This document shows positions 3,715 to 54,693 of a DNA stretch of 64,000 nucleotides, one piece after another. The translations under genes and the position numbers were made by a program. The notes below the pieces were generated by a model. The model did no database searches and had not been told where the DNA came from. It saw nothing but the letters and a program-made list of their open reading frames with translations. The stretch comes from an uncultured bacterium (GTDB lineage Bacteria > Bacillota > Clostridia > Lachnospirales > Lachnospiraceae), in NCBI GenBank assembly GCA_947647735.1, contig CANSLJ010000007.1:1-64000 (forward strand), written 5' to 3'. Numbering within the stretch: the first letter of the stretch is position 1; each line of letters begins with the position of its first letter.

Positions 3715-3716
3715 TC

Positions 3717-9910: not shown

Positions 9911-10678
9911 ATGAGAGATCCTTATTTATATCCTGATTCAGAAGTATTAAAAAATTTAGCAGATATCTATGATATGGATAAACTGAAAGATATGGAGGCG
10001 GATTATTGTTCATATAGACTTTCGGAAGTTGTCATGGATGAGACTGAGCATCAATATGATTTTATAGATCTTTGTAATATGCATCATCATATTTTTCAAG
10101 ATATTTATGAATGGGCAGGCAGGCCGAGGGTTATTAATATTGAGAAAGCAGAAATCGTTTTAGGAGAACTTTCAGTTGAATATTCAGACTGCTTTGATAT
10201 TATAAAAGATGCGGAAAATGTGTTATCTGAGATGAGAGCATATAACTGGCGGGATTCATCTTTTGAAGATATAGTGGAAGCATTTAGTGATTATATGGCG
10301 AGACTATGGAAAGTCCATCCATACCGGGAAGGGAATACCAGAACCATAGTTACTTTTTGTTGTATGTTTATTGAGGCACAAGGGATCTATATTGAGAGTG
10401 ATCTATTTAAAGATAATGCGGCTTATATGCGTTCTGCACTTGTTGCAGCTAATGCAATATTTGATGATTTGGGAGATTTACGGAAACCGGAATATCTTTA
10501 TCGAATAGTGCAGGACGCATTGGAGCAGGGAGAAGAAATGAGAAAGCAGGTAGAGACCTGCATTCAGAAAGCCGGAATGCCGGTGGCTGATGTGAATATC
10601 CGAAAAATTGTATTTTGGAATAGAAAAGAACAGAGAGAACATTCTTTTAAAGAAGTTAGAGACTATTTAAGGCAGTAA
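9911..10678 (+). CDS. Fic/DOC-family protein (AMPylator-like)
   Basis: 255-residue Fic-domain protein. The Fic core covers about residues 20-190, with EWAGRPR upstream and the active-site loop HPYREGNTRT. The catalytic His, acidic residue, GN and first Arg are present. The second Arg of the canonical HxFx(D/E)GNGRxxR motif, which contacts the ATP gamma-phosphate, is Val here. The C-terminal 60 residues (from EQGEEMRKQVE) form an extra helical tail. Fic proteins usually transfer AMP to Ser/Thr/Tyr of a target; the altered motif may mean different nucleotide handling. Paired with the antitoxin upstream. Confidence 0.88.
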   Translation: MRDPYLYPDSEVLKNLADIYDMDKLKDMEADYCSYRLSEVVMDETEHQYDFIDLCNMHHHIFQDIYEWAGRPRVINIEKAEIVLGELSVEYSDCFDIIKDAENVLSEMRAYNWRDSSFEDIVEAFSDYMARLWKVHPYREGNTRTIVTFCCMFIEAQGIYIESDLFKDNAAYMRSALVAANAIFDDLGDLRKPEYLYRIVQDALEQGEEMRKQVETCIQKAGMPVADVNIRKIVFWNRKEQREHSFKEVRDYLRQ

Positions 10679-10740: not shown

Positions 10741-11673
10741 ATGGATAATTTTCTTGTTGTAACAAATAAACAGAAAGATCCGATGTATGCCTGTACAAAC
10801 CAGATCAGGAGTTATCTGGAGCGGCACGGGAAAATATGTAGGACCGAGACGGGGGATATCCCTGAGTTGAAGATTCCGGAGGGGACGGAGTGCGCGATCG
10901 TTTTGGGCGGTGACGGTACTCTTCTTCGGGCGGCGCGGACTGCGGCGGATGCGGGGGTTCCGTTGATCGGGGTGAACCTTGGGACGCTCGGATATCTGGC
11001 GGAGGTGGACAGCGCTTATCTGGAAGATGCGCTGGATCAGTTGATCCGGGATGACTTTACGCGGGAGAAGCGGATGATGCTTTCGGGCAGAGTGGTGCCG
11101 GCAGGGAAAGAGCAGGGAGCCGGAGCGATGCCGGTGGCGAAGGAAGAAGCGGAGAGCAGAGATGTGCCGGCAGAGGATGGGAAAGATTCGGAGATGCCGG
11201 CAGGGGAAGCAGAGAGGCAGGAAGACTGCGCCTTAAACGATATCGCGATCACCCGGCGTGGTTCTCTGCAGATCATCACATTCCATATCTATGTGAACGG
11301 GCAGCTTCTCTACACCTGCCATGCGGATGGCTTTTTAGTGGCGACGCCCACCGGTTCCACCGGTTATAATCTGTCTGCGGGAGGCCCTATTGTGGAGCCT
11401 CATGCCCGGCTGATCCTGCTCACGCCGATCTGTCCCCATACGATGCAATTTCGTACCATTGTGCTTTCTGCGGAGGATGAGGTGGTGATCGAGATCGGGG
11501 AGAACAAGAAGGGGACGGTGCAGGAGGTGGAAGCCTGTTTTGACGGCAGTGTGAAGATGGAGATGCACGCCGGTGACCGGATGGAGATAAAGAAAGCAGA
11601 GAAAGTTACGGAGATGTTGAAATTAAGTCAGGACAGCTTTGTGGAAGTACTACATAAAAAAATGGATGCATAA
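10741..11673 (+). CDS. nadK: NAD kinase, with internal repeat insertion
   Basis: Cytoplasmic ATP-NAD kinase making NADP, 310 residues. GGDGTLLRAA (residues 56-65), NLGTLGYLAEV and the TPTGSTGYNLSAGGPIV loop are all intact. Residues about 119-162, between RMMLSG and ALNDIAI, hold four degenerate 10-12-residue units beginning VPAG, MPVA, VPAE and MPAG. Ordinary bacterial NadK lacks this, which explains the extra length. The insertion falls at a surface turn before a conserved strand, so activity may be kept. It starts the nadK-argR-recN-spoIVB block. Identification is secure. Confidence 0.95.
   Translation: MDNFLVVTNKQKDPMYACTNQIRSYLERHGKICRTETGDIPELKIPEGTECAIVLGGDGTLLRAARTAADAGVPLIGVNLGTLGYLAEVDSAYLEDALDQLIRDDFTREKRMMLSGRVVPAGKEQGAGAMPVAKEEAESRDVPAEDGKDSEMPAGEAERQEDCALNDIAITRRGSLQIITFHIYVNGQLLYTCHADGFLVATPTGSTGYNLSAGGPIVEPHARLILLTPICPHTMQFRTIVLSAEDEVVIEIGENKKGTVQEVEACFDGSVKMEMHAGDRMEIKKAEKVTEMLKLSQDSFVEVLHKKMDA
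11095..11226 (+). repeat. In-frame minisatellite within nadK
   Basis: Four degenerate 30-36-bp units, each starting RTGCCGG, encode VPAGKEQGAGA, MPVAKEEAESRD, VPAEDGKDSE and MPAGEAERQED. The stretch is Ala/Gly/Glu/Lys-rich and presumably disordered. Confidence 0.65.
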
Positions 11674-11690
11674 GGAGAGGGTATTGGGAG

Positions 11691-12143
11691 ATGAAGAAGA
11701 ACCGTCACGCAAAAATTGTGGAACTGATTGAGAAGTATGATCTGGAGACTCAGGACGAACTGGCGGAGAAACTGAGGGAGGATGGGTATGATGTGACCCA
11801 GGCAACGGTATCGAGGGATATCCGGGAATTGAAGTTATCCAAGGTGCCGCTGGGGGACGGCAGACAGAAATATGTGCTGCTGCGGGAAGCTCACGGGGAA
11901 ATGAGCGATAAATATGCCCGTGTCCTGCGGGAAGGGATGAGCAGTATGGGGATGGCTCAGAGCCTTCTTGTTGTGAAGACTGTTCCCGGGATGGCGATGG
12001 CTGTCGCGGCGGCGCTGGATGCCATGCATATGAAGGAAATTGTGGGAACGATCGCAGGGGATGATACGATCATGCTGGCAGTGCGCTCTGCGGAGGATGC
12101 GGAGGTTGTCAGGGAGAAAATCGATTTTGTGCTGAAGAAATAA
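11691..12143 (+). CDS. argR: Arginine repressor ArgR
   Basis: 150-residue transcription factor with an N-terminal winged helix (KIVELIEKYDLETQDELAEKL; the VTQATVSRDIRELKLSKV recognition region) and a C-terminal hexamerisation/arginine-binding domain (VPGMAMAVAAALDAM, VGTIAGDDTIMLAVRS). It represses arginine biosynthesis in response to L-arginine. It lies 17 bases after nadK and 34 before recN, the standard Firmicutes arrangement. Confidence 0.96.
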   Translation: MKKNRHAKIVELIEKYDLETQDELAEKLREDGYDVTQATVSRDIRELKLSKVPLGDGRQKYVLLREAHGEMSDKYARVLREGMSSMGMAQSLLVVKTVPGMAMAVAAALDAMHMKEIVGTIAGDDTIMLAVRSAEDAEVVREKIDFVLKK

Positions 12144-12177
12144 AAATATCCTGCTCGGAGAGAGATAGGAGAAGCGT

Positions 12178-13857
12178 ATGTTAGTAAGTTTAAATGTAAA
12201 AAATCTGGCGCTCATTGATGCGGAAGAGATGGAATTCGGTGAAGGCCTTAATATCCTTACCGGTGAGACAGGTGCCGGGAAATCCATACTGATCGGTTCG
12301 GTGAATCTGGCTCTTGGCGAGAGGGCGGATAAAGATATCATCCGGACGGGGGCAGATCATGCCCTGATCGAATTATTGTTTCAGGAGGATTCCCCGCAGG
12401 TGAAAGATCTGATGGAGGAACTGGATCTTCCCTGGGAGGACGGTTCGGTGATGATCTCCAGAAAGATCCAGGCATCCCGAAGCGTTTTTCGTATTAACGG
12501 GGAGACGGTGACAGCAAAACAGGTAAAACAGCTTTCCGAGCTCCTTCTGGATATTCACGGACAGCATGAACACCAGTCGCTTTTGCATAAGAGGAAACAT
12601 CAGGAAATTCTGGATGAATATGCCGGGGATAAGCTGGCGGCGATCCTTCCTGTTTTGAAAGAAAGCTGGCAGAAGGTGTCCGGTCTGAAAAAGGAGCTGG
12701 AGGAAGCCGGGATGGATGAAGCACAGCGCCTCAGGGAACTTTCCCTTGCGGAGTTTGAGGTGCAGGAGATCGAGGATGCGCATATTCGGATCGGGGAGGA
12801 TGAAGAGCTGGAGAGCGTTTACCGGAAAATGACGCACAGTCGCAGGATCATGGAAAGCCTTGCCTTTGCCTGTCGTTTGACAGGTGCGGAAAGCGAGGAG
12901 GGCGCTGCGGATCTGATCGGACATGCCCTGCGAGAAATGACATCTGTGTCAGAATTGGATAAAGAACTCTCTTCCCTTACAGGGCAGCTTGATGAAATTG
13001 ACAATCTGCTGCATGATTTTAACAGGGATCTGGCAGACTATCAGGAGAGCCTTGATTTTGAGGAAGCGGATTTTGCGAGAGCAGAAGAACGGTTAAATAC
13101 GTTAAACCGTTTGAAAACAAAATACGGAAAAACGCTGGAGGAGGTTCTGGCTTATCAGGAGAAGCGGAATCGGGAGCTGCAGAGGCTGTCCGATTTTGAC
13201 GCTTATCAGGAAGAAATGAAAAAGCAGCTTGCGGAAGAGACGGGAAAGCTGGAAAAACTCTGTGAAAAAGCTTCCAAAGTGCGGAAACAGGCGGCAAAGG
13301 TGCTGGAAAAGGAACTGAAACAGGCGCTGCTGGATCTGAATTTTATGCATGTGGAGTTCAGCGTGGAAGTGATAAGCAACAGGGAGCATATCAGTGCAAA
13401 GGGCTGGGATGATGTGGAGTTTATGATCTCCACCAATCCCGGTGAGGCGGTGCGTCCTTTGTCTATGGTGGCAAGCGGCGGTGAGCTGTCCCGGATCATG
13501 CTGGGGTTGAAGACTGTGCTGGCGGATAAGGATGCCGTGGAGACACTGATATTTGACGAGATCGATGCAGGCATCAGCGGTAAGACGGCATGGAAAGTTT
13601 CGGAAAAGCTGGGAATGCTTTCCAGAGAACGTCAGGTGATCTGTATTACCCACCTGCCCCAGATCGCAGCAATGGCGGATATCCATTTTTACATTGAAAA
13701 AAAGGTGAAGAACGGCATTACAAAAACAGCGATTTCTCCGCTTAAAGAGAAAGAGAGGGTTTCAGAGATTGCCAGAATGCTGGGAGGAGAGGAGATTTCT
13801 CAGGCGGCGCTTCAAAATGCAGCGGAACTGATACAAATGGCAAAAAAATCCATATAA
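12178..13857 (+). CDS. recN: DNA repair protein RecN
   Basis: SMC-like ATPase of double-strand-break repair, 559 residues. Walker A GETGAGKS lies at residues 29-36, a long helical coiled-coil middle spans about 150-380, and the C-terminal half holds VASGGELSRIMLGLK (signature) and LIFDEIDAGISG (Walker B). Normal length for the family. Part of the argR-recN-spoIVB block. Confidence 0.97.
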   Translation: MLVSLNVKNLALIDAEEMEFGEGLNILTGETGAGKSILIGSVNLALGERADKDIIRTGADHALIELLFQEDSPQVKDLMEELDLPWEDGSVMISRKIQASRSVFRINGETVTAKQVKQLSELLLDIHGQHEHQSLLHKRKHQEILDEYAGDKLAAILPVLKESWQKVSGLKKELEEAGMDEAQRLRELSLAEFEVQEIEDAHIRIGEDEELESVYRKMTHSRRIMESLAFACRLTGAESEEGAADLIGHALREMTSVSELDKELSSLTGQLDEIDNLLHDFNRDLADYQESLDFEEADFARAEERLNTLNRLKTKYGKTLEEVLAYQEKRNRELQRLSDFDAYQEEMKKQLAEETGKLEKLCEKASKVRKQAAKVLEKELKQALLDLNFMHVEFSVEVISNREHISAKGWDDVEFMISTNPGEAVRPLSMVASGGELSRIMLGLKTVLADKDAVETLIFDEIDAGISGKTAWKVSEKLGMLSRERQVICITHLPQIAAMADIHFYIEKKVKNGITKTAISPLKEKERVSEIARMLGGEEISQAALQNAAELIQMAKKSI

Positions 13858-13870
13858 AACAAAAAATGAG

Positions 13871-13900
13871 TGAGTGAATTTTGATTACCTACGCATACTA
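13871..13900 (+). promoter_or_regulatory. Candidate sigma-F/sigma-G promoter for spoIVB
   Basis: CATACTA at 13894-13900 matches the forespore sigma-G -10 consensus exactly. TGAGTG at 13871-13876 lies 17 bases upstream and matches four of six positions of TGAATA. In Bacillus, spoIVB is expressed in the forespore from such promoters, so the position 32 bases before the gene fits. Confidence 0.6.
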
Positions 13901-13931
13901 AAAAGGACGTTGACATCGGAGGAAGAGAAGT

Positions 13932-15173
13932 ATGCGTAAGGTAATCAAAAATTTTTATAAAGGAATTATTGCATTTGTGCTTATGGGAGCTCTTGCCGGG
14001 GGATGGTATGCCTGCTATGATTCGACACCTTCTCAGGTGAGGCTGCTCACGGATAAAGAACAGCATATTGATTTTAAACTGCCTGCCAGCGCCAGTATCG
14101 AGACGGATCAGGGCAGGATGGTAGCCGGTCTGTACCGCCCTATAAAAATGGTGACCGGTGCGGCGGAAACCGCCTATCAGATGGATGTAAAATGGCTTGG
14201 CTTCATTCCGCTCAAAAGCGTGGAAATCCAGGTGGTGGGGGAGCGGGAAGTCTCTGCCGCCGGTTTTCCCATTGGAATATTCCTGAAAACAAAGGGCGTT
14301 ATGGTGGTGGGTGTCGGCAGCTTTAACGACATAAACGGGGCAGGCTTTGCGCCTGCAAAAAATCATCTGGAGGAGGGCGACTATATTGTAAGTTATAACG
14401 GTGTGGAGATCACCGGAAAAAAGCAGTTTATGAGCCTGCTCTCGGAAAATCAGGGAACGGAGGTTGTTCTCGGCATCGAGCGGGACGGTGTGTACTTAGA
14501 GGAGCGGGTGACCCCGGCAAAAAATCAGAATGGGGAGTATAAGATGGGCATCTGGATCAGGGATAATGCCCAGGGCGTGGGAACGCTTACTTTTGTGGAT
14601 GAGCAGGGAAATTTCGGTGCGCTTGGACATGGCATCACGGATGCCGATACAGGGGAGCTGATGGAGCTCGGGAGAGGTTCTCTTTACGGGACAAAGATCG
14701 TGGCTGTCCGCAAGGGGACGGACGGCGTGCCCGGGGAACTGACCGGTATGATAGAGTATGATGATGCCAATGTGATCGGGGAGATCACACAGAATACGCC
14801 TTATGGCATTTTCGGGCATCTTGATCTGGAAAAACTGGCGGCGAGCGGTATCGATCTTGAGATGCAGGAGATCGGTTTAAAGCAGGATATCCATCTGGGC
14901 GCCGCTACCATGATCTCTTCTATCAATGAGGAGATGAAGGAGTATGATATCGAGATCACGGCGATCCATATGGGGAGCGACGGCGGAAATAAAGGGCTGG
15001 AACTTTTGGTGACGGATGAGGAACTGCTGAATCTGACCGGCGGTATCGTGCAGGGTATGAGCGGGAGCCCGATCCTGCAGGATGGAAAGGTTGTGGGGGC
15101 TGTGACTCATGTGCTGGTGAACGCGCCGGAGAAGGGGTACGGGATATTTATTGAGGAGATGCTGCAAGGATAG
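13932..15173 (+). CDS. spoIVB: SpoIVB serine peptidase
   Basis: Forespore-secreted S55-family signalling peptidase that triggers pro-sigma-K processing. 413 residues: an N-terminal membrane/signal segment (GIIAFVLMGALAGGWYA), a PDZ domain (about 110-200, with GDYIVSYNGVEITG), and a peptidase domain containing LGHGITDADTG (the histidine) and GMSGSPILQDG (catalytic serine, about residues 377-379). Preceded by GGAGGAAGAG. Spore-forming Firmicutes normally have spo0A directly downstream; here a terminator and unrelated accessory genes follow. Confidence 0.96.
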   Translation: MRKVIKNFYKGIIAFVLMGALAGGWYACYDSTPSQVRLLTDKEQHIDFKLPASASIETDQGRMVAGLYRPIKMVTGAAETAYQMDVKWLGFIPLKSVEIQVVGEREVSAAGFPIGIFLKTKGVMVVGVGSFNDINGAGFAPAKNHLEEGDYIVSYNGVEITGKKQFMSLLSENQGTEVVLGIERDGVYLEERVTPAKNQNGEYKMGIWIRDNAQGVGTLTFVDEQGNFGALGHGITDADTGELMELGRGSLYGTKIVAVRKGTDGVPGELTGMIEYDDANVIGEITQNTPYGIFGHLDLEKLAASGIDLEMQEIGLKQDIHLGAATMISSINEEMKEYDIEITAIHMGSDGGNKGLELLVTDEELLNLTGGIVQGMSGSPILQDGKVVGAVTHVLVNAPEKGYGIFIEEMLQG

Positions 15174-15212
15174 AGGCGGGAGAACAGGGAAGTTTTTGGG
15201 TTTGAGAAAGAT

Positions 15213-15254
15213 GGCCGTATTATGAGAGGTATGACATAATACGGTTATTTTTAT
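15213..15254 (+). terminator. Rho-independent terminator after spoIVB
   Basis: A perfect 10-bp stem, CCGTATTATG (15215-15224) with CATAATACGG (15235-15244), and a 10-base loop are followed by TTATTTTTAT. It closes the nadK-spoIVB block. Confidence 0.85.
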
Positions 15255-15369
15255 GGTGCCGACAAGATCAAAAGCGGAAGAATTTCTGATAGAAGAGGAA
15301 AATGTAATCCGGAGACATAGGGAAATAACAGTCCTGTGGCTGCCGGATAGTTCTTTCTCAGGTAATAAC

Positions 15370-15399
15370 TTGTCATAGTCAGGTTTTCAGTGGTATGAT
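15370..15399 (+). promoter_or_regulatory. Sigma-A-like promoter opening the immunity-like cluster
   Basis: TTGTCA (15370-15375), an 18-base spacer and TATGAT (15394-15399) with an extended TGG just before it. It is the only good promoter in the 336-base gap after spoIVB, and it points into the run of genes from 15510. The rest of that gap (15255-15369 and 15400-15509) shows no gene. Confidence 0.65.
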
Positions 15400-15509
15400 G
15401 AGGTCATAAGGTAAAGCAGGTGACAGATTTTTGATGAGTCAATTTTATCAGATTGAGTAAAAGCTGAGACTGCCATTGGGTAAAGTTTGGGAAGGATTAA
15501 GATGGGTAA

Positions 15510-16193
15510 ATGAATACTAAGACAAATGTAATGGAGGTTCCAAAGGATTTTAAAATCATCGGCTATTACATAGTAGAAGTGATCGATATGCCGGAATGGC
15601 TGAGAGACCTGGGGGAGAGGATACTTTCGGTCAGTCTGGGAGAGGTACATCCCAGATTGGAGTGTTATTTTGTGAATGGATGGCGAAAGGGGGAGAAACA
15701 GGCGTATCAGAAAAGGCTGAAACTGAGTGATGAGCAGTATGCGGAATATGTGGAAACAGTCGGAAATTTATTTGATTCCGGAAAAATGGACATGAACGGT
15801 ATGTTTCTGCATTTGTCAGATGCACAGTATTTCCAGCAGAAGTTCTGCATGGAGATTCCCTGTCGGTTGGTGAGTATTTCCACGACGCCTGACTGGTTTG
15901 GCGTTTTATCGGAAGAATTGAAAGATGGTTATGGAAACAGCATTATAAATGGAGAGCTGGATTACAATACACTGATCGGTTATGACATTCTCGGGTGGGA
16001 GAGTAATTCGTGGGGAATTGATGGTTTTTTGTGGGATCATTTGCATAAAGAACTGCCGGAAGCAAGATTTAATGAGATCGGACTGCTCAAAAATGATTTT
16101 GCGGAAGTGACTGGCTTTGCCCGTCGGATTAAGGGAAAGGGTGAGCCGGTGGAATGGATTCCGTGCAGAGTCGGGGAAGTGTGTGGAGAATAG
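15510..16193 (+). CDS. Hypothetical protein, immunity-like
   Basis: 227-residue soluble protein, not recognised. It begins MNTKTNVMEVPKDF and contains aromatic/acidic stretches (MPEWLRDLGER, LEECYFVNGW-like, LGWESNSWGIDGFLWDHLHKELPEARFNEIGL). No signal, membrane or catalytic motif is visible. It is first in a one-directional series of proteins resembling polymorphic-toxin immunity families, behind a strong promoter. That neighbourhood suggests, but does not prove, an immunity function. Confidence 0.6.
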   Translation: MNTKTNVMEVPKDFKIIGYYIVEVIDMPEWLRDLGERILSVSLGEVHPRLECYFVNGWRKGEKQAYQKRLKLSDEQYAEYVETVGNLFDSGKMDMNGMFLHLSDAQYFQQKFCMEIPCRLVSISTTPDWFGVLSEELKDGYGNSIINGELDYNTLIGYDILGWESNSWGIDGFLWDHLHKELPEARFNEIGLLKNDFAEVTGFARRIKGKGEPVEWIPCRVGEVCGE

Positions 16194-16214
16194 AAACAGT
16201 GAAGGAGGTATATC

Positions 16215-17429
16215 ATGGGATTTTTTGACAGAAAGAAATCGGAAAAATCAGAGCAGGAACAAGCAGAACAGCAGGAAAGCCGACGGATGGAGAAGAAAGC
16301 GGACCAGCAGGAAAACCAGCGGATGGAGAAGAAGGCGGAACAGCAGGAGAAAACACAGGGGGAAGCCAATCAGACGAAACAGCAGTCTGAGATAAAAGAG
16401 TATATTAAAGGAGCTGGCGGCACGATCGTCACAAAATCCATCCTGAACGGCACTTCAAGATTAAAATGGCTGTTCAGGCAGGATGGCGGAATGGGAAACG
16501 GCTGGATCGCTTTTGGGGATAAAGATTCACAGGATTATGTGAACGATGCGAATAATATGACGGTCGTGGATTTTAACGTGCTGGCGAACATCGAGCCGAC
16601 TGTGGTGAATGTGTTTTATATGCCGATGGGGAGTGATCTGGAATTTCGGAGTGATAAGACCGGAAAATATTTTGTTGATACAAAGACAGGCAGGGAGATC
16701 CGGGAGCCGGTGAAGCATCCGGCACAGATCGCATTTGAGAAGAATCTGAAATTTTTAAATAAAAAGGATTATCCGTTGGAGTTCTTTCAGAGTTTATTTA
16801 CCAAAAGTGATAAGATGGATGTGTTTACAGCGGGGATGACGGATTTTCCGACCGGGGAAGTGGTGCTTGCTGATCCGCTGGCTTACCTTGGAAGCAGGTA
16901 TGAAACAGTTTTGGATAGAAAAATTCCGGCGGGGAGCTATCCTGTGGAACTGTCCATCTGCCGTTCAAAAATTGCGGGCCTGCGGATCGCGGCGGCACGG
17001 CTTGTGATCAGTGACAAGCCGGCTGTCCGGTATGAAACTGCCATGCCAAAGGGGAAAGGCATAGAAGATTTTGGAAAGCCGGGTGTTTTTACATTTTTCG
17101 GTGTGGATACGGGGCTTGCCTGTTTTGCGGATGCAAAAACTTCGGAGGAATACAGGATGTTTTTCGAGAACTGGCTGAGGGAAAATCCGGGAAAGAATAA
17201 ATATACGGATTATTTTGGGGCTCTCTTTCAGGAAAGTTTTAAGGCGCATCCCGAGGTACAGAACCCGGGCGGGAGCTTTCTGGAGTGGAAGATGCCGGAG
17301 ACCGGTCAAAGGATCGTTATGTTTGCAAGTGGTATGGGGGATGGTATATACAGCGGTTACTGGGGACTGGATGCGGACGGTGAAGCTGCCTGTCTGGTGA
17401 CGCCGTTTATGAATCCGGAGTATTTCTAA
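16215..17429 (+). CDS. DUF4241 domain protein with charged N-terminal extension
   Basis: 404 residues. MGFFDRKKSEK is followed by a Gln/Glu/Lys-rich repeat (MEKKADQQE / MEKKAEQQE, to about 60), likely coiled coil, then a unique middle and a C-terminal DUF4241 domain (from about 225: GEVVLADPLAYLGS, PAGSYPVELSICRS, FGVDTGLACFADAKT, GDGIYSGYWGLDADG). DUF4241 occurs in predicted immunity loci of Firmicutes; no enzymatic role is known. GAAGGAGG precedes the start. It shares its first six residues' pattern with the SUFU and DUF4261 proteins in this window. Confidence 0.82.
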   Translation: MGFFDRKKSEKSEQEQAEQQESRRMEKKADQQENQRMEKKAEQQEKTQGEANQTKQQSEIKEYIKGAGGTIVTKSILNGTSRLKWLFRQDGGMGNGWIAFGDKDSQDYVNDANNMTVVDFNVLANIEPTVVNVFYMPMGSDLEFRSDKTGKYFVDTKTGREIREPVKHPAQIAFEKNLKFLNKKDYPLEFFQSLFTKSDKMDVFTAGMTDFPTGEVVLADPLAYLGSRYETVLDRKIPAGSYPVELSICRSKIAGLRIAAARLVISDKPAVRYETAMPKGKGIEDFGKPGVFTFFGVDTGLACFADAKTSEEYRMFFENWLRENPGKNKYTDYFGALFQESFKAHPEVQNPGGSFLEWKMPETGQRIVMFASGMGDGIYSGYWGLDADGEAACLVTPFMNPEYF

Positions 17430-17484
17430 AATATAAACAGATATTATCGGGCAGTAAATAAGGAAGAAAAGGTTTATCAATAAT

Positions 17485-19032
17485 ATGGAATTCGAGAAAA
17501 TAAAAATAGACCTGATTCTGCTCAGCTGTGTCGTGCAGAGCCTGGGCAGGATGCCGGAAACGTTATATGATCTTCAAAAAGTAAAGAATTTATATTTGGG
17601 AGGAAAACCAATCAGGCTGATCGATCCATACAATGATTCGATTCCTGACCGGCTAGAGATCGTGGAGGGCGATTTCAGTGCAATTGGGAAGATGTCGAGG
17701 CTGAAAAAGCTGTTGATATCCGCCATGCCGATTGAAGATTTTTCTTTTTTAAGAACCTGTATCTCGCTGGAGGAACTGGAGATATCGGGATGTGGTGTGA
17801 TCGACTGCGCTATTTTGGCGGAGGTGACAAGCATAAAGAGACTCAGTCTGCACTATTGTGCCGGGCTGGAGCATATGGAAAAACTTCTGAAATTGTATCG
17901 GTTGAAAAGGCTTTCCTTAGAGGGCACTATGATCACGGATGCTGACTGTTTCAGGAACTGCTGGATTCCGGAAGTTTATCTGCCGGAGCATATTTTGAAG
18001 GAGAGACGGAGAGCGGAAAAGAAAGAAGAGCAGCGGAAGTCAGAGGAGAAGGGACAGCGGAAGAGGAAAGAAAAGGGAGAACAGCAGGGGACAACAGAAG
18101 AACAGCAGGAAGTTCAACATGGAACGGCAGTTTCTCGGAACAGGACAGAGGCACATCTTTGTGCGGGCGTGCCGTTCCGGGCAGCAGAGCGCAAAGCAGG
18201 TACATATTCATATACGCTGACAGAATCAAATTCGCCATTGTGGGAAGTCTACAGAGGTGCTTATGGGAATGTGAGCGAGTACATAGCGATCTTGATGGAT
18301 GAGCGGGAAAGGGCGCCGGAAACCTTTAAACTGCGCCGGCTGGAAACAGTTCCGAAAACAAATTATGAGATCGCCTTTGATAATCTTTTTGAGAATCTGT
18401 ACCATCAGATGAGTTTTTATCAGGCTTCCTGGCTTGTGCTTCCCTATCTGGCAAGGCTTATGGAAGGCTGGGAAAAAGAGGAAGATAAGGAGTGGCTGTT
18501 TCAGGGGATCATGGCAGCAGGAAGTTGTCTTGCCACAGATGTATTCGGGGATAGACCGGGAGAGGAGGATCTGTATGAGAGTTATCTGGATGTCGCCCGG
18601 GAAATACATGACATAGCTGTCAGATTTCTGGCGCAGAACATCGATTTTGTACTGGAAAAACCCATTGTCTGGAGGCGGGAATTTGCGATCGCTGTCATGG
18701 CGGTTCTGGGAGAGAAAAAGCTGGCTTATATGTTTTACCTGTCAGGGATGGAATCCTGTTATATCGTCTGTCCTGCCTGTGAAAACTGCGATGAGGAGAT
18801 CGAATTTGGTTATTTTGAGCCTTCCGAGCGGATCAAAGTCGCGAAAGCACCTTCTGAAAAGTGGGACGGGGAGAGCCTGAGAGATGTGAAGCTGTGGTTG
18901 TTTAATCTGTTTGACCTGCTGGAGGATGATGAGGGGAAGGAGAGGCTCTGCTATTATTTCGGGACTTATGAGTGCCCGGAGTGCGGAGAGGAAGTGCCGG
19001 TTTTGAAAGGAATGGAAGAATATTTTGGGTAG
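17485..19032 (+). CDS. LRR-like protein with C-terminal zinc-ribbon region
   Basis: 515-residue soluble protein in three parts. Residues about 10-165 are leucine-rich-repeat-like (LKKLLISAMPIEDFSFL, LEELEISGCGVIDC, IKRLSLHYCAGLEHM). A Lys/Glu/Gln low-complexity linker spans about 170-215. A helical domain (about 235-515) follows, with two CxxC pairs, CPACENCDE near residue 430 and CPECGEE near 500, likely binding zinc. I know no named family for the whole. The context of DUF4241, DUF4261 and SUKH genes suggests an immunity or accessory role. Confidence 0.7.
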   Translation: MEFEKIKIDLILLSCVVQSLGRMPETLYDLQKVKNLYLGGKPIRLIDPYNDSIPDRLEIVEGDFSAIGKMSRLKKLLISAMPIEDFSFLRTCISLEELEISGCGVIDCAILAEVTSIKRLSLHYCAGLEHMEKLLKLYRLKRLSLEGTMITDADCFRNCWIPEVYLPEHILKERRRAEKKEEQRKSEEKGQRKRKEKGEQQGTTEEQQEVQHGTAVSRNRTEAHLCAGVPFRAAERKAGTYSYTLTESNSPLWEVYRGAYGNVSEYIAILMDERERAPETFKLRRLETVPKTNYEIAFDNLFENLYHQMSFYQASWLVLPYLARLMEGWEKEEDKEWLFQGIMAAGSCLATDVFGDRPGEEDLYESYLDVAREIHDIAVRFLAQNIDFVLEKPIVWRREFAIAVMAVLGEKKLAYMFYLSGMESCYIVCPACENCDEEIEFGYFEPSERIKVAKAPSEKWDGESLRDVKLWLFNLFDLLEDDEGKERLCYYFGTYECPECGEEVPVLKGMEEYFG

Positions 19033-19543
19033 GCTGAGATCGATCATATTTATCGGAGGACTGATGCTTGCCATGCTGGCGGTGATCTCCGGGTATTTTT
19101 CTATAGAAACTCTCTCCGGGGCGGTTCCTGCGGAGGGTTACGAGGACAGAGGCATCTATACTTTTGTGCCCTATCAGGTGCTGCCGGTCTCGGTGAAAAA
19201 TACCGGGGCGAGCGGGCGGGACCGCCGCATGCATCCGACAAAGACCGTCTATATGGTTTATTACCGGGACACGAAAGGCGCCGGCTACCGCTGGGAGGAG
19301 CAGGCACTCAGCAGGACATCAGGGGAAAGAGCTGTGGAGGAAGGACAGACTGTGGAACGCCGGGTATTGGAGATCGTGGAAGATCATACTTATATCACTG
19401 TGGAGCCGGAGATGACAGCGGAAAGCTACAATGACGGCCTGCGGCGGAAGAGTCAGATGATTTTGGGAGCTTCAGGGGCGTATATCCTGTTTTATATTCT
19501 GGCGTGGTTTGTGGTGTGGAGCAGGAAAGATGGTATTGTTTAA
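19025..19543 (+). CDS. Two-TM membrane protein (DUF3592-like, tentative)
   Basis: 172 residues, predicted helices at about 6-25 and 148-166 flanking an extracytoplasmic beta-rich part (TVYMVYYRDTKGAGYRWEEQ). The start is taken as TTG 19025, overlapping the LRR gene stop by eight bases; it preserves the whole first membrane helix, which an ATG at 19064 would truncate. The topology of two helices around a small domain recalls DUF3592 proteins, but the match is weak. Function unknown. Confidence 0.6.
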   Translation: MGRLRSIIFIGGLMLAMLAVISGYFSIETLSGAVPAEGYEDRGIYTFVPYQVLPVSVKNTGASGRDRRMHPTKTVYMVYYRDTKGAGYRWEEQALSRTSGERAVEEGQTVERRVLEIVEDHTYITVEPEMTAESYNDGLRRKSQMILGASGAYILFYILAWFVVWSRKDGIV

Positions 19544-19557
19544 GAGGGGGAGAATAA

Positions 19558-20397
19558 ATGGGATTTTTTGATCGTTTTAAGAAAAAACAGCAGGAAAGTG
19601 TTTCCGGATCTGAAAGACGACAGGCACCGGAGGCAGATACTTTGTGTCTGCTGGTCATGGATCAGGTATTGCAGGATGTGTCTCAGGCAGGAAATCTTGT
19701 GGAGCAGGCTTTCGGCTTCGGAGTGCTGGAAAAAATGGATCAGAGTGATCCGCGTATGCTGCATATGGTGGTGAAACTGGAGGGCGTGGAATTCTGGTGT
19801 TCCTATATGCCTTTTCCGGTGCCGCAGGAGGAGATGAATCTTTCGGATGTGCCGGAATACAATTTTTTTAATGCCGAGGAGTATCAGGCATTTTGTGAAA
19901 ATAAGTCCTTCTGGATCATTGCGCAAAAGGGAGGCGGGCAGTCACTGGAGGAAAAACGTCATATCTGTCGTTTGTTTACAAGGCTGAATGCTGCGTTTAT
20001 GGAGCAGGAGGGCGCTGTGGGAGTTTATGTGAGCGCCTCAGAGCTCCTGATCAGTAAGCGGGTGTATTTACACTATGAAGCTATTCTGGAAAAAAATGCG
20101 GAAGATCCGATGTATTTTCCGGCACCTCTGTGGATCAGTATCCGCCATGGGAAAAAGGGCGATATTTCGATGATCGGAACCTGGGGACTGCGTCAGTTTG
20201 GATTTCTGGAACTCTGGTTCATGGATCCGAAGTCTGAGTGGGCACAGATTCATGAAAAACTGTATCTGATGTCGGTATTCGAGATTACCGGGAGGGAGCT
20301 GTATCAGAATATGGACACCATTGCTTTCACACCGGGGGATACGTCTGTGTTCAAAGAGCTTAACGGGGCATTGTTTATTGTCGGAGGGAATGTCTGA
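19558..20397 (+). CDS. DUF4261 domain protein
   Basis: 279-residue soluble protein. Begins MGFFDRFKKKQQ and a short disordered linker; the body (about 25-275) fits DUF4261, with hydrophobic LCLLVMDQVL, a central AVGVYVSASELLISKRVYLHY, a PLWISIRH strand, and C-terminal GFLELWFMDP. DUF4261 proteins are frequent in predicted immunity clusters. AGAGGGGGAG lies nine bases before the start. The family call is moderate; a function is not known. Confidence 0.72.
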   Translation: MGFFDRFKKKQQESVSGSERRQAPEADTLCLLVMDQVLQDVSQAGNLVEQAFGFGVLEKMDQSDPRMLHMVVKLEGVEFWCSYMPFPVPQEEMNLSDVPEYNFFNAEEYQAFCENKSFWIIAQKGGGQSLEEKRHICRLFTRLNAAFMEQEGAVGVYVSASELLISKRVYLHYEAILEKNAEDPMYFPAPLWISIRHGKKGDISMIGTWGLRQFGFLELWFMDPKSEWAQIHEKLYLMSVFEITGRELYQNMDTIAFTPGDTSVFKELNGALFIVGGNV

Positions 20398-20420
20398 GCG
20401 AGAGGGCAGTTCATAAAATA

Positions 20421-20445
20421 CTCCCTGTTTTTAGAGTACAGGGAG
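20421..20445. other. Stable hairpin between genes
   Basis: CTCCCTGT and ACAGGGAG form a perfect 8-bp stem with a 10-base loop. It is followed by A-rich, not T-rich, sequence on the + strand, so it is not a + strand terminator. Read on the - strand it is followed by TATTTTAT, but no - gene ends here. It could be a processing or stability element. Confidence 0.4.
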
Positions 20446-20474
20446 AAATAAATATATGCGGAAGGGACCTGTAA

Positions 20475-20810
20475 ATGACAGAGAGAAGAGAAGCGATAGC
20501 ATACTGCCTGACTTTGAAGGATTCCTATGAGGACTATCCTTTTCATGATCCGAACTGGTGTGTCATCAGACATAAAAACAGTAATAAGGTGTTTGCCTGG
20601 ATCTTTGACAGAAACGATCGTGTCTGGATCAATGTGAAGTGCGATCCCCAGTGGCGGGATTTCTGGCGGGAGACATTTTCTTCTGTGGTTCCTGCGTATC
20701 ATCTGAACAAGGAGCACTGGAATTCCATTATACTGGACGGAACTGTGCCTGAGGAGGATATCAAGCGGATGATCGCGGAAAGTTATGATCTGACGAAAAG
20801 GGGAAAGTGA
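20475..20810 (+). CDS. MmcQ/YjbR-family protein
   Basis: 111-residue small protein with the family's features: LTLKDSYEDYPFHDPNWCVIRH, the KVFAWIFDRNDRVWINVKCDPQ strand pair, and PAYHLNKEHWNSIILDGTVPEEDIKRMI. Members have a CyaY-like fold and are predicted to bind DNA; the cellular role is unclear. Complete length for the family. Confidence 0.85.
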   Translation: MTERREAIAYCLTLKDSYEDYPFHDPNWCVIRHKNSNKVFAWIFDRNDRVWINVKCDPQWRDFWRETFSSVVPAYHLNKEHWNSIILDGTVPEEDIKRMIAESYDLTKRGK

Positions 20811-20811
20811 C

Positions 20812-20997
20812 ATGTGTGTCATAGTGCAGGTATGCCGTAATCTGCCTGAGGAATCTGACCGAGAGATTGCCAATCTGCTTGCAGTAAAGGATCATTATCC
20901 CAAGTATGTGGTGACGCTCGATGAGTTTGCTTCGGGAAATGTCAACGGTGTGAAGATTATGTATCTGGCTGATTTTCTGTTAAAGAGCGAATACTGA
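20812..20997 (+). pseudogene. C-terminal remnant of an AAA/DUF4143 ATPase
   Basis: 61 codons matching the C-terminal end of AAA+ ATPases of the DUF4143 type: EIANLLAVKDHYPKYVVTLDEF, then a GV(K)xxxLADFLL ending. These ATPases are around 400 residues long, so the ATPase part (Walker A/B) is missing. The fragment begins right after the YjbR gene's stop with no proper ribosome site. I read it as the stump of a deleted gene and evidence of recombination at this point in the cluster. Confidence 0.7.
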
Positions 20998-21038
20998 CGG
21001 CGGCACTTCAGCTTGCTACAGAATGCATATAGAGTAAA

Positions 21039-21067
21039 AAGACAAATTGAAGTATAGAAAATATACT
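21039..21067 (+). promoter_or_regulatory. Possible promoter before SUKH gene
   Basis: AAGACA (21039-21044), a 17-base spacer and TATACT (21062-21067). Transcription would begin just before the AGAGGAGAGG ribosome site. The -35 is weak. Confidence 0.35.
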
Positions 21068-21089
21068 ATATAAAGAGGAGAGGAATGAA

Positions 21090-22547
21090 ATGGCAAAAAC
21101 AGCACAGCCCGCATGGGTAAAGCGCATTCATAAATTACTGGAACAGGCAAAAATAAAAGACAGCAGTCTGGAGCGGTTCGGTGCCAGAAGCCATCAATAC
21201 AAGCTGGCACAGCCTCTCAGTGAAGAGAAGCTCAAGAGATATGAGGAACAGAACGGCATTCAGCTTCCGGAGGAATACCGGGATTTTCTTCTGCTGGCAG
21301 GAAACGGCGGGGCCGGCCCTTATTACGGGCTCTATTCTCTGGACGTATCGGAAAAGGAGAGTCAAAATCCACGCACATACTGCGTACAGCAGGAGCCGGT
21401 CATCTATCCGAAGATGAGTGATGAAGACTGGGAACGGGCGGCTGATTCGGAGGGAAAACGGAAAGGGGAAGAAGTACATCCTTATGCCGGAGTCCTTCCC
21501 ATTGGCACCCAGGGCTGTACCCTGATGACCGGGATCATGCTGGGAGGTCCCTATCGGGGACAGGTGGTCTATTATGATGAGGATCTCTGCGGGAAACCGT
21601 TTTTTGTGCGGGAAAAAGGGTTTCTGGCATGGTATGAGCGCTGGCTCAGGGAAGTGATCGCGGGTTACAATGAGGAGGAAGCGGGATTCGGCCTGTATGT
21701 GGACGGAAAGCCCGGAGAGCTGATGGAGCTGTACCAACAGACCGATGATCCGGAGGAAAAGATTGAGATCATAGATAGTTTTTATAAGTTTGAGTCACTG
21801 CCGGGAAAACAGAAGACTTATTTTAAACAGGCATGCAGGCAGGAATCCAACATGGAAGTGCGGATGAAGCTGATCAAGATGCTGGCGCGCTTTCATGTGC
21901 CGGGGATGACGGAGGAGATTGAAAAGCTGTGGGAATACGGCGCTTATGGGGAGGCAGTTTCGATCATCACCTATGAGGGAGGATGGGAGGCCAAGGAAAA
22001 ATGGTATGAGCGGATCCTTGAAAAGATGCCTGAACTGAAAGGGACGGCTTTCCGGGATGCCTGCCATACGATCAGGACGGTGAAGGAGTGTCCGAATGTC
22101 CATGCAGGAAGATTGAAGGAGATGCTGGAGAGGGAAGATTTAGACAGAAATGATAGAATTGTGTTGTTTCAAAGTATCCGGGAACTGAAAGGTAAAGAGG
22201 AAGTGCTGGATTATTTTATAAAGTATCATAACGCGGAGGATGATGATCCCCTTATGCTGATCTATGCCGTCTGGGCGATGGAAGGCGCAGAGGATCAGCG
22301 CCTGAAGGAAATTTATGTGAGACTGCTGGACAAGTACAGGACCCATGAAAATGCAAAGTATGATTATAAGGGAAGCCAGATGGTCTTAAAAGGTGGATGC
22401 TGTATGGGAGCGAGCAGGCCGGAGGGACAGCTTGTGAGCAACCTGATGAGGCGGTTTGATCTGTTTGGGCTGGACTACCGGGGTGCGTGGAAACTGCTGA
22501 TGGACAGCGGGAGATGGAGGAAGTGGAAAGAGGAGAATGGGGTTTGA
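21090..22547 (+). CDS. SMI1/KNR4 (SUKH) family protein with HEAT-like tail
   Basis: 485 residues. The N-terminal SUKH domain (about 40-195) shows LPEEYRDFLLLAGNGGAGPYYGLYSLD, a later LPIGTQGCTLMTGIMLGG and GQVVYYDEDL. SUKH proteins are the largest group of predicted immunity proteins against contact-dependent and polymorphic toxins. The C-terminal half (about 210-485) is helical and HEAT-like and may serve in binding. A strong AGAGGAGAGG site precedes ATG 21090. The domain call is confident; the toxin it would answer is not present in the window. Confidence 0.85.
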   Translation: MAKTAQPAWVKRIHKLLEQAKIKDSSLERFGARSHQYKLAQPLSEEKLKRYEEQNGIQLPEEYRDFLLLAGNGGAGPYYGLYSLDVSEKESQNPRTYCVQQEPVIYPKMSDEDWERAADSEGKRKGEEVHPYAGVLPIGTQGCTLMTGIMLGGPYRGQVVYYDEDLCGKPFFVREKGFLAWYERWLREVIAGYNEEEAGFGLYVDGKPGELMELYQQTDDPEEKIEIIDSFYKFESLPGKQKTYFKQACRQESNMEVRMKLIKMLARFHVPGMTEEIEKLWEYGAYGEAVSIITYEGGWEAKEKWYERILEKMPELKGTAFRDACHTIRTVKECPNVHAGRLKEMLEREDLDRNDRIVLFQSIRELKGKEEVLDYFIKYHNAEDDDPLMLIYAVWAMEGAEDQRLKEIYVRLLDKYRTHENAKYDYKGSQMVLKGGCCMGASRPEGQLVSNLMRRFDLFGLDYRGAWKLLMDSGRWRKWKEENGV

Positions 22548-22622
22548 GCACCTGAGTTGTCGGAAAAGAGAAAGTCCGCAGTCTTTTCTGCTTACAGTTT
22601 ATTATGTGAGGGGATGTTTTAC

Positions 22623-23933
22623 ATGAACTTTCAGGACGAAATGAAAAAGATGTTTCTGCGTGTTACGGATGGAGGCGTGGAGCCGGCCGAGTGGGAACAG
22701 TGGTGGAATGAACATAAAAGCCAGCTGGAGGAGGCGCTGACCAGAGGAGACTTAAATCGGATCATGCCGGCGTTCTGGAGCAGCAGTTATTATAGCATGA
22801 CAAAAACCCAGAGCGGGGTCGCCTATTATTTTCATGCCCAGGGGCGTCCGGTGAAAACTTCCGATTATTATGAGAAAAAGGCGGAGGAGGAAGAGGCGCA
22901 GAGACAGCGGGAAGCGATGGAAAAGTTTCAGGAACGGACCGCGCCGGAAAGATTTCGATGGGAGAGGTATCTGGAAGAACATCCGGCAGGGGTGGTGGAG
23001 TTTGACTGGAAGCACCTTCTGGGAACGCCGCCCGGACAGAAAGCTGCGCTGGTCTTTTCCTATAAAAAAACGCGCACCGAAGAGCAGTGGAAGGAGACCC
23101 GGGAGGAGCTGCAGCTTCGACTAAAGGAAAATATGCAGGCAAAAATTGCGCGCCTTGCGAAGGCATACGGCATGAAAAAATCCGGGCCGAAGACTTTTGT
23201 GAAGGAGAAAAACGGACTGGTATGTGTTTTGAAGTTTATCGGGTATTTCCGGGGCGGCGGTTATGAGGCGATGCCTTATTATATCTGCCCGATTTATGCG
23301 CTTGATACGGGGATTTTGGGACTGCCCGGTCATATCAGTCAGGGAGAATATTTTCAGAGGATGCAGCGGGACTGGGGTGTGATCCAGTATGGCACGACTG
23401 CCGTGGATGCAGATGAGGTGGAAAAGATTAACCGGAAATTTGACGAGATCCTGACGTTTCTTGCGGACGGGATATTTCCGGAATGGCAGAAGATTGACTC
23501 GTTGGAGGCCTATTTTGCAAAGGAACGTCAGGATTATCTGAAGGCAACGGAAACCGGACCCGTGAATATCCGAACCGGCAGGCCTATGTGGGATCTGGAT
23601 GAGAGAGGACAAAAGCATCCCTGGCGGGCGGATGATTATCTGTTCGGGGTGTGGGGTCTGCTCTCGGGAAGAGAAGAAGAGGGGTATGGAAAGCTGGTGG
23701 AATGCGTAGAGTATGGCGCAGACTATATGGAAAGATGCCTGAAAGAGAGGCCCGATGCCTATAATGACCTCAGGGATCCGATGGCGGTTCTTTACTATAA
23801 TGCGGGACTTTTTGCACAGACACGGCAGATCGCGGACCGGAAGGAACGCAGAGCGGAGATTTTGAAAGTTTATGAGGATGTGTGCGGGTTTATGCGGTAT
23901 TATCATGGATTGGCGAAGCGCACCGGGCGGTAA
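22623..23933 (+). CDS. Hypothetical protein, end of immunity-like cluster
   Basis: 436 residues from ATG 22623, preceded by GAGGGG at nine bases; a TTG start at 22557 would add 22 poorly conserved-looking residues. It is soluble, with an N-terminal helical part (QDEMKKMFLRVTDGGVEPAEWEQWW), a Glu/Gln/Arg-rich coiled stretch (about 85-115) and a C-terminal helical region (YGKLVECVEYGADYMERCLKERPDAY). I recognise no named domain. It is last in the one-directional run. Confidence 0.6.
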   Translation: MNFQDEMKKMFLRVTDGGVEPAEWEQWWNEHKSQLEEALTRGDLNRIMPAFWSSSYYSMTKTQSGVAYYFHAQGRPVKTSDYYEKKAEEEEAQRQREAMEKFQERTAPERFRWERYLEEHPAGVVEFDWKHLLGTPPGQKAALVFSYKKTRTEEQWKETREELQLRLKENMQAKIARLAKAYGMKKSGPKTFVKEKNGLVCVLKFIGYFRGGGYEAMPYYICPIYALDTGILGLPGHISQGEYFQRMQRDWGVIQYGTTAVDADEVEKINRKFDEILTFLADGIFPEWQKIDSLEAYFAKERQDYLKATETGPVNIRTGRPMWDLDERGQKHPWRADDYLFGVWGLLSGREEEGYGKLVECVEYGADYMERCLKERPDAYNDLRDPMAVLYYNAGLFAQTRQIADRKERRAEILKVYEDVCGFMRYYHGLAKRTGR

Positions 23934-25933: not shown

Positions 25934-26745
25934 TTAGATGACACAGCTAATGGCAGGGTTTAGATCCCGCCAGTTCGGGATAAACCCCATGGCTTTTTCA
26001 ACAGTTGAAATAGAAATTGTATTTAGTTGTTGAGCCAGATATTTCATCTGTGCATCCAAAGCTTCGTAAAACAGGCATTTCTGAAAATGGAGAGTACTTT
26101 TAATATGCTGTTTAATTCATCTGGTTTCAGGTTGAAAAAACGTTCGATATCATTCTGATCCTGCTGTTTTAAATTTGCATAAAAAATACTGATTGTTCCC
26201 AGAGTCAGGGTGTTTACTAATACCCATAATGGGACGTATCCGTATTCAAGCATATAATGGGAAATCATGGGATTATTTTTTGATAGTTGTCTGGCAATTT
26301 CTCTTTGAAGGCCGGCAATAAGGTCAGAAACATCTCCTATTTTTTGAGCAGGTGTTTTTCGCTCACCAGAGTGAACAGAAATCTCGAAATTAGATACTTT
26401 CAGGTAATTGTCATGTCCATATTTTCGAGAAAAATTGTGGGCCAGTACACTTTTAATATTATTTTCGATTTCCAATATATAGCGTATAAAAAGATTTCTT
26501 AATTCTCTGTCGAACAGGTAAAGAGCGTAGATTTCCTCAAATTTTGTACCGGTCAGGTACTGTTCATCTGGGCCGGTGTAATCAGCATCAAGAAATAACC
26601 ATTTATATCCATTGAAAAGATTATAATAATTTTCCGCTTCAATGATTTTCCGTGTACAGGCATCATTTGAGATCAGTAATCCACGCGATATTTGTTTGTG
26701 GAGTTGATCAGAGGTGGTAGTAAAGACTTTAGATGTGCCAGGCAT
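25934..26745 (-). pseudogene. Abi (AbiD/AbiF, Abi_2) abortive-infection gene, broken at HEPN motif
   Basis: Reads MPGTSKVFTTTSDQLHKQI onward with clear Abi_2 features: YALYLFDRELRNLFIRYILEIENNIKSVLAHNFS and YVPLWVLVNTLTLGTISIFYANL. The frame should end in the HEPN RNase motif (RN, then His) but instead reads FRNACFTKLWMHR and stops at 26044. A different frame from 26071 to 25934 continues as an Abi-type C-terminus (FYEALDAQMKYLAQQL, AMGFIPNWRDLN). A deletion plus frameshift at about 26070 thus removed the catalytic histidine. Intact relatives sense phage and cleave RNA. A good site (GAGGT) precedes the start. Probably inactive. Confidence 0.78.
25956..25987. other. Hairpin in the 3' remnant of the Abi gene
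   Basis: GGGTTTA-GA-TCCCG pairs with CGGGA-TAAACCC (12 pairs, 2-base bulge, 6-base loop), and TTTTT lies seven bases further at 25994-25998. It could end transcription of the VanS-like gene, but it also lies within former Abi coding sequence. The T-run distance is long for a terminator. Confidence 0.4.
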
Positions 26746-54483: not shown

Positions 54484-54693
54484 AATATGATTATTCACTT
54501 TATAAGGAAAGATAGATAAAATTTTGCGGAATGCCGGAGAATTTTCTGAGAATAGGAGATAAAATGACAGAATATGGAAAATCCGGCGATGCCTCAGGCT
54601 TGAAGGAAAGAGGGGTAGGAAATATACTAAGTTGTATGAAAATATCAAAATTATGATATCTTAAAAAATCTGGTATAAAAAGGGGAATTTTAT

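Follow-up and report, generated by a model that had tools for sequence, protein, structure and literature searches.

The window analysed here (64,000 nucleotides, positions 1 to 64,000 of contig CANSLJ010000007.1, from an uncultured member of the Lachnospiraceae) encodes a form of Spo0A, the master regulator of sporulation, that has no receiver domain. The same form is found throughout a large clade of the family, and on a glgA tree its loss of the receiver has a single origin. We consider that such a phosphorylation-independent Spo0A would probably still run early sporulation, controlled either by its amount or by a partner of the short stub that is left of the receiver. The broader proposal is that a spore-forming gut lineage has uncoupled sporulation from Spo0A phosphorylation, with a receiver-less Spo0A, a conserved stub, few autoregulatory 0A boxes and some other form of control; this we judge to have a slightly better than even chance of being correct. 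The gene, its parts and its neighbour are as follows.

54694-55287, + strand: receiver-less spo0A, 197 amino acids (aa), orthologue of the sporulation master regulator (PF08769, 1.5e-46), with glgA next downstream as in relatives
54694-54804, + strand: stub, residues 1-37, the start of a receiver (first beta-alpha-beta unit) without the phosphorylation-site region
54805-54933, + strand: variable linker, residues 38-80 (predicted local distance difference test score, pLDDT, from AlphaFold below 50 at residues 37-77)
54952-55263, + strand: Spo0A_C DNA-binding domain (Pfam; matches to 1fc3 and 1lq1)
55639-57090, + strand: glgA, the ancestral downstream neighbour of spo0A

The Spo0A protein and its stub

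In the 197-aa protein Pfam finds Spo0A_C only, at residues 87-190, and no receiver domain. The NCBIfam Spo0A model TIGR02875 is passed (207 bits, cut-off 200), yet the match covers only positions 127-259 of its 262. The Spo0A_C domain matches the structures 1fc3 and 1lq1 in sequence (1.3e-49 and 4.4e-48) and also in fold. The AlphaFold prediction is confident for this domain, which resembles the same two structures, places one helix in the stub, and leaves the linker disordered; with a mean pLDDT of 68.9, the model is weak outside the DNA-binding domain. By its domain content, the protein is not classed as a response regulator, as there is no N-terminal receiver with a phosphorylated aspartate and only the 37-residue stub is present.

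A 38-residue profile of 42 stubs was aligned with the first 38 residues of a Spo0A receiver profile. The alignment is ungapped and scores 46.3 in hhalign (E 1.2e-8), while 30 column shuffles score at most 14.7. Because the match lies above the shuffles, the profile comparison identifies the stub as the beginning of the lost receiver domain. The 42 receiver-less sequences, which were also used for the 0A-box counts below, include near-copies (35 remain after removing seven), exclude genome G050 and have start codons set by the search expression. The receiver profile was built from 40 of 54 receiver-bearing sequences, picked by a DDN-type start; the 54 do not include L149 (truncated at a contig end), L183 (partial receiver) or L153, L184 and L185 (receiver-bearing, and missed by the expression).

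Residues 1-37 are conserved throughout the receiver-less clade, and E2, D11, L22, Q30, I31, I33 and T34 are invariant in 18 sequences. In seven close members of the genus, the pooled ratio of nonsynonymous to synonymous polymorphism (pN/pS) is 0.038 for the stub, 0.32 for the linker and 0.025 for the DNA-binding domain (residues 81-197), which shows strong purifying selection on both the stub and the DNA-binding domain. Such conservation implies that the stub has a job. One such job would be to bind a stand-alone receiver or another regulator, which would restore signal control in trans. The stand-alone receivers read in four genomes of the genus (L109, L096, L103 and L101) are nevertheless the same CheY-like gene, which follows a flagellar-type gene; the best Protein Data Bank match of the one at L109 is CheY itself, and among the matches listed there is no dedicated Spo0A-like receiver. 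We therefore regard a receiver in trans as improbable, for all the conservation of the stub.

Ancestry and extent of the receiver loss

In relatives, the gene order is nadK-argR-recN-spoIVB-spo0A-glgA, as for example in genome G017 (L079, in which argR and recN are separated by two further genes). The receiver-less gene occupies this ancestral block in L116 and L123, where spoIVB is adjacent to it. L111 and L114 have the same block order with other sequence between spoIVB and spo0A, the insert in L111 (on a G004 contig) being an AAA_14/DUF4143 gene, and L115 has the same order on a contig that begins at argR. Beside the window's spo0A, glgA is the only ancestral block neighbour that still adjoins. 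The distance from the spoIVB match to the DNA-binding domain is 294 bp in L116 and 283 bp in L123, compared with 561-1034 bp in 29 of 33 comparison loci. A gap this short, with the block order kept, means that the receiver was removed in place, and gene order shows the receiver-less gene to be the spo0A orthologue, altered where it stood.

The origin of the loss was mapped on a glgA tree of 86 entries. All 42 receiver-less entries form one clade (support 100/99) and need a single change, a count as low being found in 0 of 500 shuffles; the sister of this clade is a group with Lacrimispora celerecrescens and Hungatella. These 42 include the glgA of G050 and the identical pair L072/L121, and exclude L283, for which no glgA was found, and L110 and L111 (G006 and G004 contigs). 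On the glgA tree, the receiver loss is thus shown to have a single origin. A tree of the DNA-binding domain, which is short and poorly resolved, needs two changes for the receiver-less entries rather than one.

Phage Spo0A homologues without a receiver have been reported (PMC10294663, in the part of that source available), which raises the idea that a phage-borne truncated gene replaced the host's. We find this scarcely credible. The gene stands at the host locus, its stub derives from a receiver, and 0 of 35 viral matches cover the stub. Its DNA-binding domain also lies nearer to host Spo0A (median path 0.46, 12 entries) than to viral Spo0A (2.15), again on a short and poorly resolved tree. 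Two contigs from the viral collection, L304 and L305, carry long Spo0A open reading frames (ORFs) of 292 and 311 aa that may hold a receiver, the printed start of L304 being receiver-like; unlike the truncated phage forms, they are either phage-carried full Spo0A or host DNA.

All nine genomes of the window's genus lack the receiver: their best TIGR02875 match begins at model position 117-141 of 262, and among the matches listed none spans both domains. Many of the genomes compared are metagenome assemblies, and the window's own genome is 86.6% complete. In a scan of named genome contigs that covered the best 80 loci (L110-L189), 25 (L110-L134, two of them on the G006 and G004 contigs) are matched from their first residue and lack a receiver. 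Of the other 55 (L135-L189), 53 have one; the remaining two are L149, which is truncated at a contig end, and L183, whose receiver is partial. The family was then sampled with 140 genomes, one per genus, of which 98 have Spo0A_C among the matches listed; G159 (contig end), G129, G074 and G134 are left unclassified. The spo0A ORFs that were read have a stub and no receiver in G000, G011, G038, G045, G071, G093, G094, G105, G112, G117 and G147, so that ORF reading places the receiver-less state in the window's genus and 10 further genera.

A trivial explanation was considered and rejected. An assembly or frame error in one genome does not account for the same architecture in many independent genomes, under purifying selection; in L116 and L123, moreover, the DNA-binding domain starts too close to spoIVB for a receiver to be hidden there. 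A full Spo0A at another place in the genome was likewise not seen among the matches listed for the nine genus genomes.

A separate case is L183, from a Roseburia-named metagenome-assembled genome (MAG), where the Spo0A encoded at positions 3583-4197 is 204 aa long and its receiver is partial and degenerate (Response_reg 0.0063, below the cut-off). By its position on the glgA tree, outside the receiver-less clade, this is a second, independent partial loss.

Promoters and sporulation genes

The events proposed are these. An ancestor common to a large clade of Lachnospiraceae would have lost most of the receiver of its spo0A in place, leaving the DNA-binding domain, a flexible linker and the conserved stub. 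With the usual aspartate gone, kinases could no longer phosphorylate the protein there. With the domain that masks the DNA-binding half gone, the protein should bind 0A boxes without phosphorylation, and would activate spoIIG and spoIIE. Its activity would then be set by the amount made, by a partner binding the stub, or by a second signal further downstream.

Support for such activity comes from known variants of Spo0A. The change in the sad67 allele of Bacillus subtilis spo0A lies in the receiver. In the portions of the sources available, sad67 is described as constitutively active (PMC4689505), and the isolated DNA-binding domain as binding its true targets unphosphorylated because the inhibitory contacts of the receiver are missing (PMC3485338). 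Taken together, these imply that a natural receiver-less Spo0A would be an active regulator. As with sad67, Spo0A is expected here to act without phosphorylation; sad67 is a laboratory allele, whereas the present form is natural and fixed throughout a clade.

The promoters of spoIIG and spoIIE are in keeping with continued use of Spo0A. Spacers of 21-22 bp mark the Spo0A-activated sigmaA promoters of B. subtilis, a point on which no passage was found in the literature searched. Within the genus, a -35/-10 pair with an unusually long spacer is found at spoIIG in 8 of 9 genomes (21 bp) and at spoIIE in 8 of 9 (22 bp). Adding G011, the pattern xxGACA-21/22 bp-TATANT occurs at spoIIG in 9 of 10 receiver-less genomes and at spoIIE in 9 of 10, compared with 0.0015 per locus in dinucleotide shuffles; in the same ten genomes a 16-18 bp spacing occurs once at spoIIG and never at spoIIE. 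Other relatives have the 21-bp spacer at spoIIG in 5 of 8 and at spoIIE in 4 of 7 (one of the seven, G023, being without detected Spo0A_C). In the eight genomes with the spacing, the spoIIE -35 is preceded at 33 bp by a TGTCG(A/G)A box, which G002 has too. Upstream of spoIIG, G011 has two exact 0A boxes.

At spo0A itself there is a difference. An exact TGTCGAA within 250 bp upstream is found in 6 of 42 receiver-less loci and in 37 of 54 receiver-bearing ones (shuffles 0.03 for both; Fisher 1e-7, a value that overstates the evidence since the entries are related). Without near-copies, the receiver-less count is 6 of 35. In the sister group, 4 of 5 loci have the exact box. Weaker feedback fits a protein that is no longer switched off by dephosphorylation. 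The 250 bp upstream of the window's spo0A contain no 0A box, even with one mismatch allowed, and nothing convincing was seen there as a sigmaH-type promoter. A candidate promoter was picked by eye from an alignment of nine genus members:

54600-54628, + strand: putative sigmaA-like promoter TTGAAG-17-TATACT upstream of spo0A, which in the scan ties with another site at 9.5

Just ahead of its -35, at 54580-54600, is a GCGATG-like element that is largely conserved in the nine genus members and is a candidate operator.

The sporulation markers that were checked are retained. SpoIVA is full length in 9/9 genomes of the genus and in 11/11 further receiver-less genera (G050 included). It is likewise full length in 16/16 receiver-bearing genera, compared with a match in 1/16 genera without Spo0A (G055, partial). 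SigG, the SpoIIE phosphatase, SpoIIAA, alpha/beta small acid-soluble spore protein (SASP) and SpoIIGA were each found in all nine genus genomes, in all of which spoIIAA is followed by ORFs of the size of spoIIAB and sigF. From these genes the genomes look like those of spore formers, and the cells would by gene content be expected to sporulate. The genes upstream of the spoIIE loci are presumably yabP-, yabQ- and divIC-like. SpoIIE has no N-terminal membrane domain in any of the nine genus genomes, nor in G011 or the receiver-bearing G016 (spoIIE loci L203-L211, L213).

Several observations weigh against the proposal and need to be set beside this evidence. G002 has no long spacing at spoIIE and G004 none at spoIIG. 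The spoIIE box is present in 9/9 genomes, of which seven differ from TGTCGAA by one letter, so that it is exact only in G000 and G004. Upstream of spoIIG the nine genus genomes have no exact 0A box, only scattered boxes with one mismatch. If one mismatch is allowed, boxes precede spo0A in 28/42 receiver-less loci (shuffles 0.47) and in 53/54 receiver-bearing ones (shuffles 0.48), so spo0A may have kept its autoregulation in a weaker form. Spo0A can go undetected where SpoIVA is present, as in G055 (partial SpoIVA match) and in G023, which is 80% complete and is the only one with SpoIVA of the seven genomes without Spo0A_C in a 31-genome set. In the genus, the scores of SigG, SpoIIE and SpoIIAA fall short of the curated cut-offs, which is also the case in family relatives, and SpoIIE, lacking its membrane part, has open frames of only 394-461 aa there. 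The markers checked are few and mostly from one genus, with promoters from two genera. In G050 a stop interrupts the spo0A frame. Finally, one predictor assigns every one of the 24 Lachnospirales MAGs in a data set, among them Acetatifactor, to the non-sporulators (PMC12536801, in the part available), and three records named Acetatifactor (L120, L122 and L126) fall within the receiver-less clade.

The G050 locus (L285) has the block nadK-argR-recN-spoIVB-spo0A-glgA intact and SpoIVA intact, with spo0A alone interrupted; this is either a recent loss or an assembly error.

Some of these points suit a different explanation, namely that sporulation has been lost, that the DNA-binding half of Spo0A was kept for other genes such as those of surface polysaccharide or stationary phase, and that the sporulation genes are relics. 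The predictor's call, the shortened SpoIIE and the single SASP match per genome in the genus all lean this way, as does a second gene with Spo0A_C only (described below), which often lies among polysaccharide-type genes. Relic genes ought to have decayed across a clade this deep, and this is not the pattern of SpoIVA, which is absent in 15 of the 16 Spo0A-negative genera and complete in the receiver-less ones, nor of the long-spacer layout kept at both promoters. We judge loss of sporulation to be unlikely, and control of sporulation by a phosphorylation-independent Spo0A to be the more probable account.

Genes between spoIVB and spo0A

The original prediction for this region concerned the genes that follow spoIVB, and held that spo0A was missing there and that an immunity-like island of about 8.4 kb had taken its place. 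The features concerned are listed here.

10741-13857, + strand: nadK, argR and recN (starts at 10741, 11691 and 12178), ORFs named by reading, in the same order as in relatives
13932-15173, + strand: spoIVB, the ancestral upstream neighbour of spo0A (TIGR02860, 339 bits, cut-off 305; Peptidase_S55 also passed)
15510-23933, + strand: accessory stretch of eight ORFs, in order unknown, DUF4241 with Imm33, weak leucine-rich repeat (LRR), unknown (membrane-like by eye), unknown, YjbR, SUKH and unknown
24126-54483: rest of the interval, with two-component, ABC (ATP-binding cassette), AbiD-like, gmd-fcl-manC-manA, sigma/anti-sigma-like pairs, ogt, radical SAM, dus and azlCD genes, named by reading except for AbiD (PADLOC)

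The block nadK-argR-recN-spoIVB (10741-15173) lies in order, and the prediction was right that spoIVB is followed directly by same-strand accessory ORFs and not by spo0A. The gene is not missing, being the Spo0A_C ORF described above, ahead of glgA, on the same strand and 39,520 bp downstream of spoIVB. Among the accessory genes, DUF4241 is borne out (Pfam 1.5e-50, in one protein with Imm33 at 9.3e-13), as is SUKH (SMI1_KNR4/SUKH, 5.1e-11), and a YjbR gene can be added (1.2e-29). The LRR gene has a match (5.1e-05) that falls under the Pfam cut-off. The supposed DUF4261 protein (279 aa) has no Pfam or NCBIfam match, and no ATPase family matches the supposed ATPase stump (ORF 20794-20997, 67 aa), whose one match, to DUF7228 at 0.0029, lies below the cut-off. 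The strong promoter proposed at 15370-15399 (TTGTCA-18-TATGAT) does not stand out, with 2 promoter-like sites compared with 1.3 +/- 1.2 in shuffles. For the spoIVB terminator, an inverted repeat can be seen by eye at about 15214-15253, with a loop that exceeds the limit of the scan, in which no terminator passed.

The content of this stretch varies within the genus. DUF4241 and YjbR genes also follow spoIVB in G001, G005 and G008, with the LRR gene too in G001 and G008, in differing orders; none of the three is found there in G002, G004, G006 (8.3 kb seen) or G007, and G003 was not counted, its contig ending 1.9 kb past spoIVB. The immunity-type domains in the 15-24 kb stretch are Imm33 and SMI1_KNR4/SUKH, the other island genes having no such match, and PADLOC matches none of six island genes. 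Elsewhere, PADLOC identifies the AbiD-like abortive-infection gene inside the interval at 26044-26745 on the - strand (6.1e-48), and a Fic protein at 9911-10678 (PDC-S04 and PDC-S72). Rfam and tRNA scans of the window found nothing.

It could be argued that spo0A was displaced when an orphan-immunity hot spot broke up the block, and that nothing else is unusual. Some immunity-like genes, variable in relatives, do lie between spoIVB and spo0A. The separation is however 39.5 kb and not 8.4 kb, and includes segments common to relatives (gmd-fcl-manC-manA; ogt, radical SAM, dus, azlCD and xre). Nor is the split itself exceptional. Among L135-L189, 33 of the 50 loci long enough to judge have spoIVB no more than 5 kb upstream of spo0A (5 were too short); for receiver-less loci the figure is 7 of 26, with 9 too short. 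Moreover, the receiver is lost also where the two genes adjoin (L116, L123), which refutes the hot spot as a full account and leaves it very improbable. The conclusion is that separation of spoIVB and spo0A is common, that the stretch after spoIVB consists of accessory genes of an ordinary kind, some of them immunity-like, and does not explain the change in Spo0A, and that the unusual feature is the loss of the receiver.

Relation to known forms of Spo0A

The present gene shares with spo0A of Bacillus and Clostridia its position, its DNA-binding domain and the long-spacer promoters of spoIIG and spoIIE. It differs from them in having no receiver, and so no aspartate phosphorylation, and in the lower number of exact 0A boxes upstream of spo0A itself. 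The truncated phage forms (PMC10294663, in the portion at hand) likewise consist of the DNA-binding domain without a receiver; those are accessory phage genes, whereas here a chromosomal spo0A retains a receiver-derived stub that no viral match covers.

Paralogues with Spo0A_C only are common in the Lachnospiraceae. They too have the DNA-binding domain alone, and differ in being about 125 aa long, without a stub, away from the spo0A locus and often among polysaccharide-type genes. A second gene of this kind is found in 12/12 receiver-less genera (G050 included) and in 7/9 genomes of the window's genus, for example L298 6459-6836 (G000 C13), and also L073, L288-L297 and L299-L303. It lies mostly among glycosyltransferase, GDP-fucose and chain-length-type genes (largely named by reading), and 13 such genes form one group on the domain tree; it may be a dedicated polysaccharide regulator. 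One family genome, G092, has nine Spo0A_C matches, of which the ones listed lie mostly in short open frames.

No report of a receiver-less Spo0A as the chromosomal master gene was found in the parts consulted of the open-licence literature, outside which most subscription journals lie. Some human gut Lachnospiraceae are described as having lost spo0A though other sporulation genes are present (PMC11170972, in the section available). For annotation, the present form passes the NCBIfam equivalog cut-off, so that a survey recording whether spo0A is present would take it for the usual kind. According to the passages available of PMC3533761, the switch by which bacilli and clostridia enter sporulation is the phosphorylation of Spo0A. 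The present clade, a natural one, appears to keep the sporulation pathway without its switch, which poses the question of what else can start sporulation.

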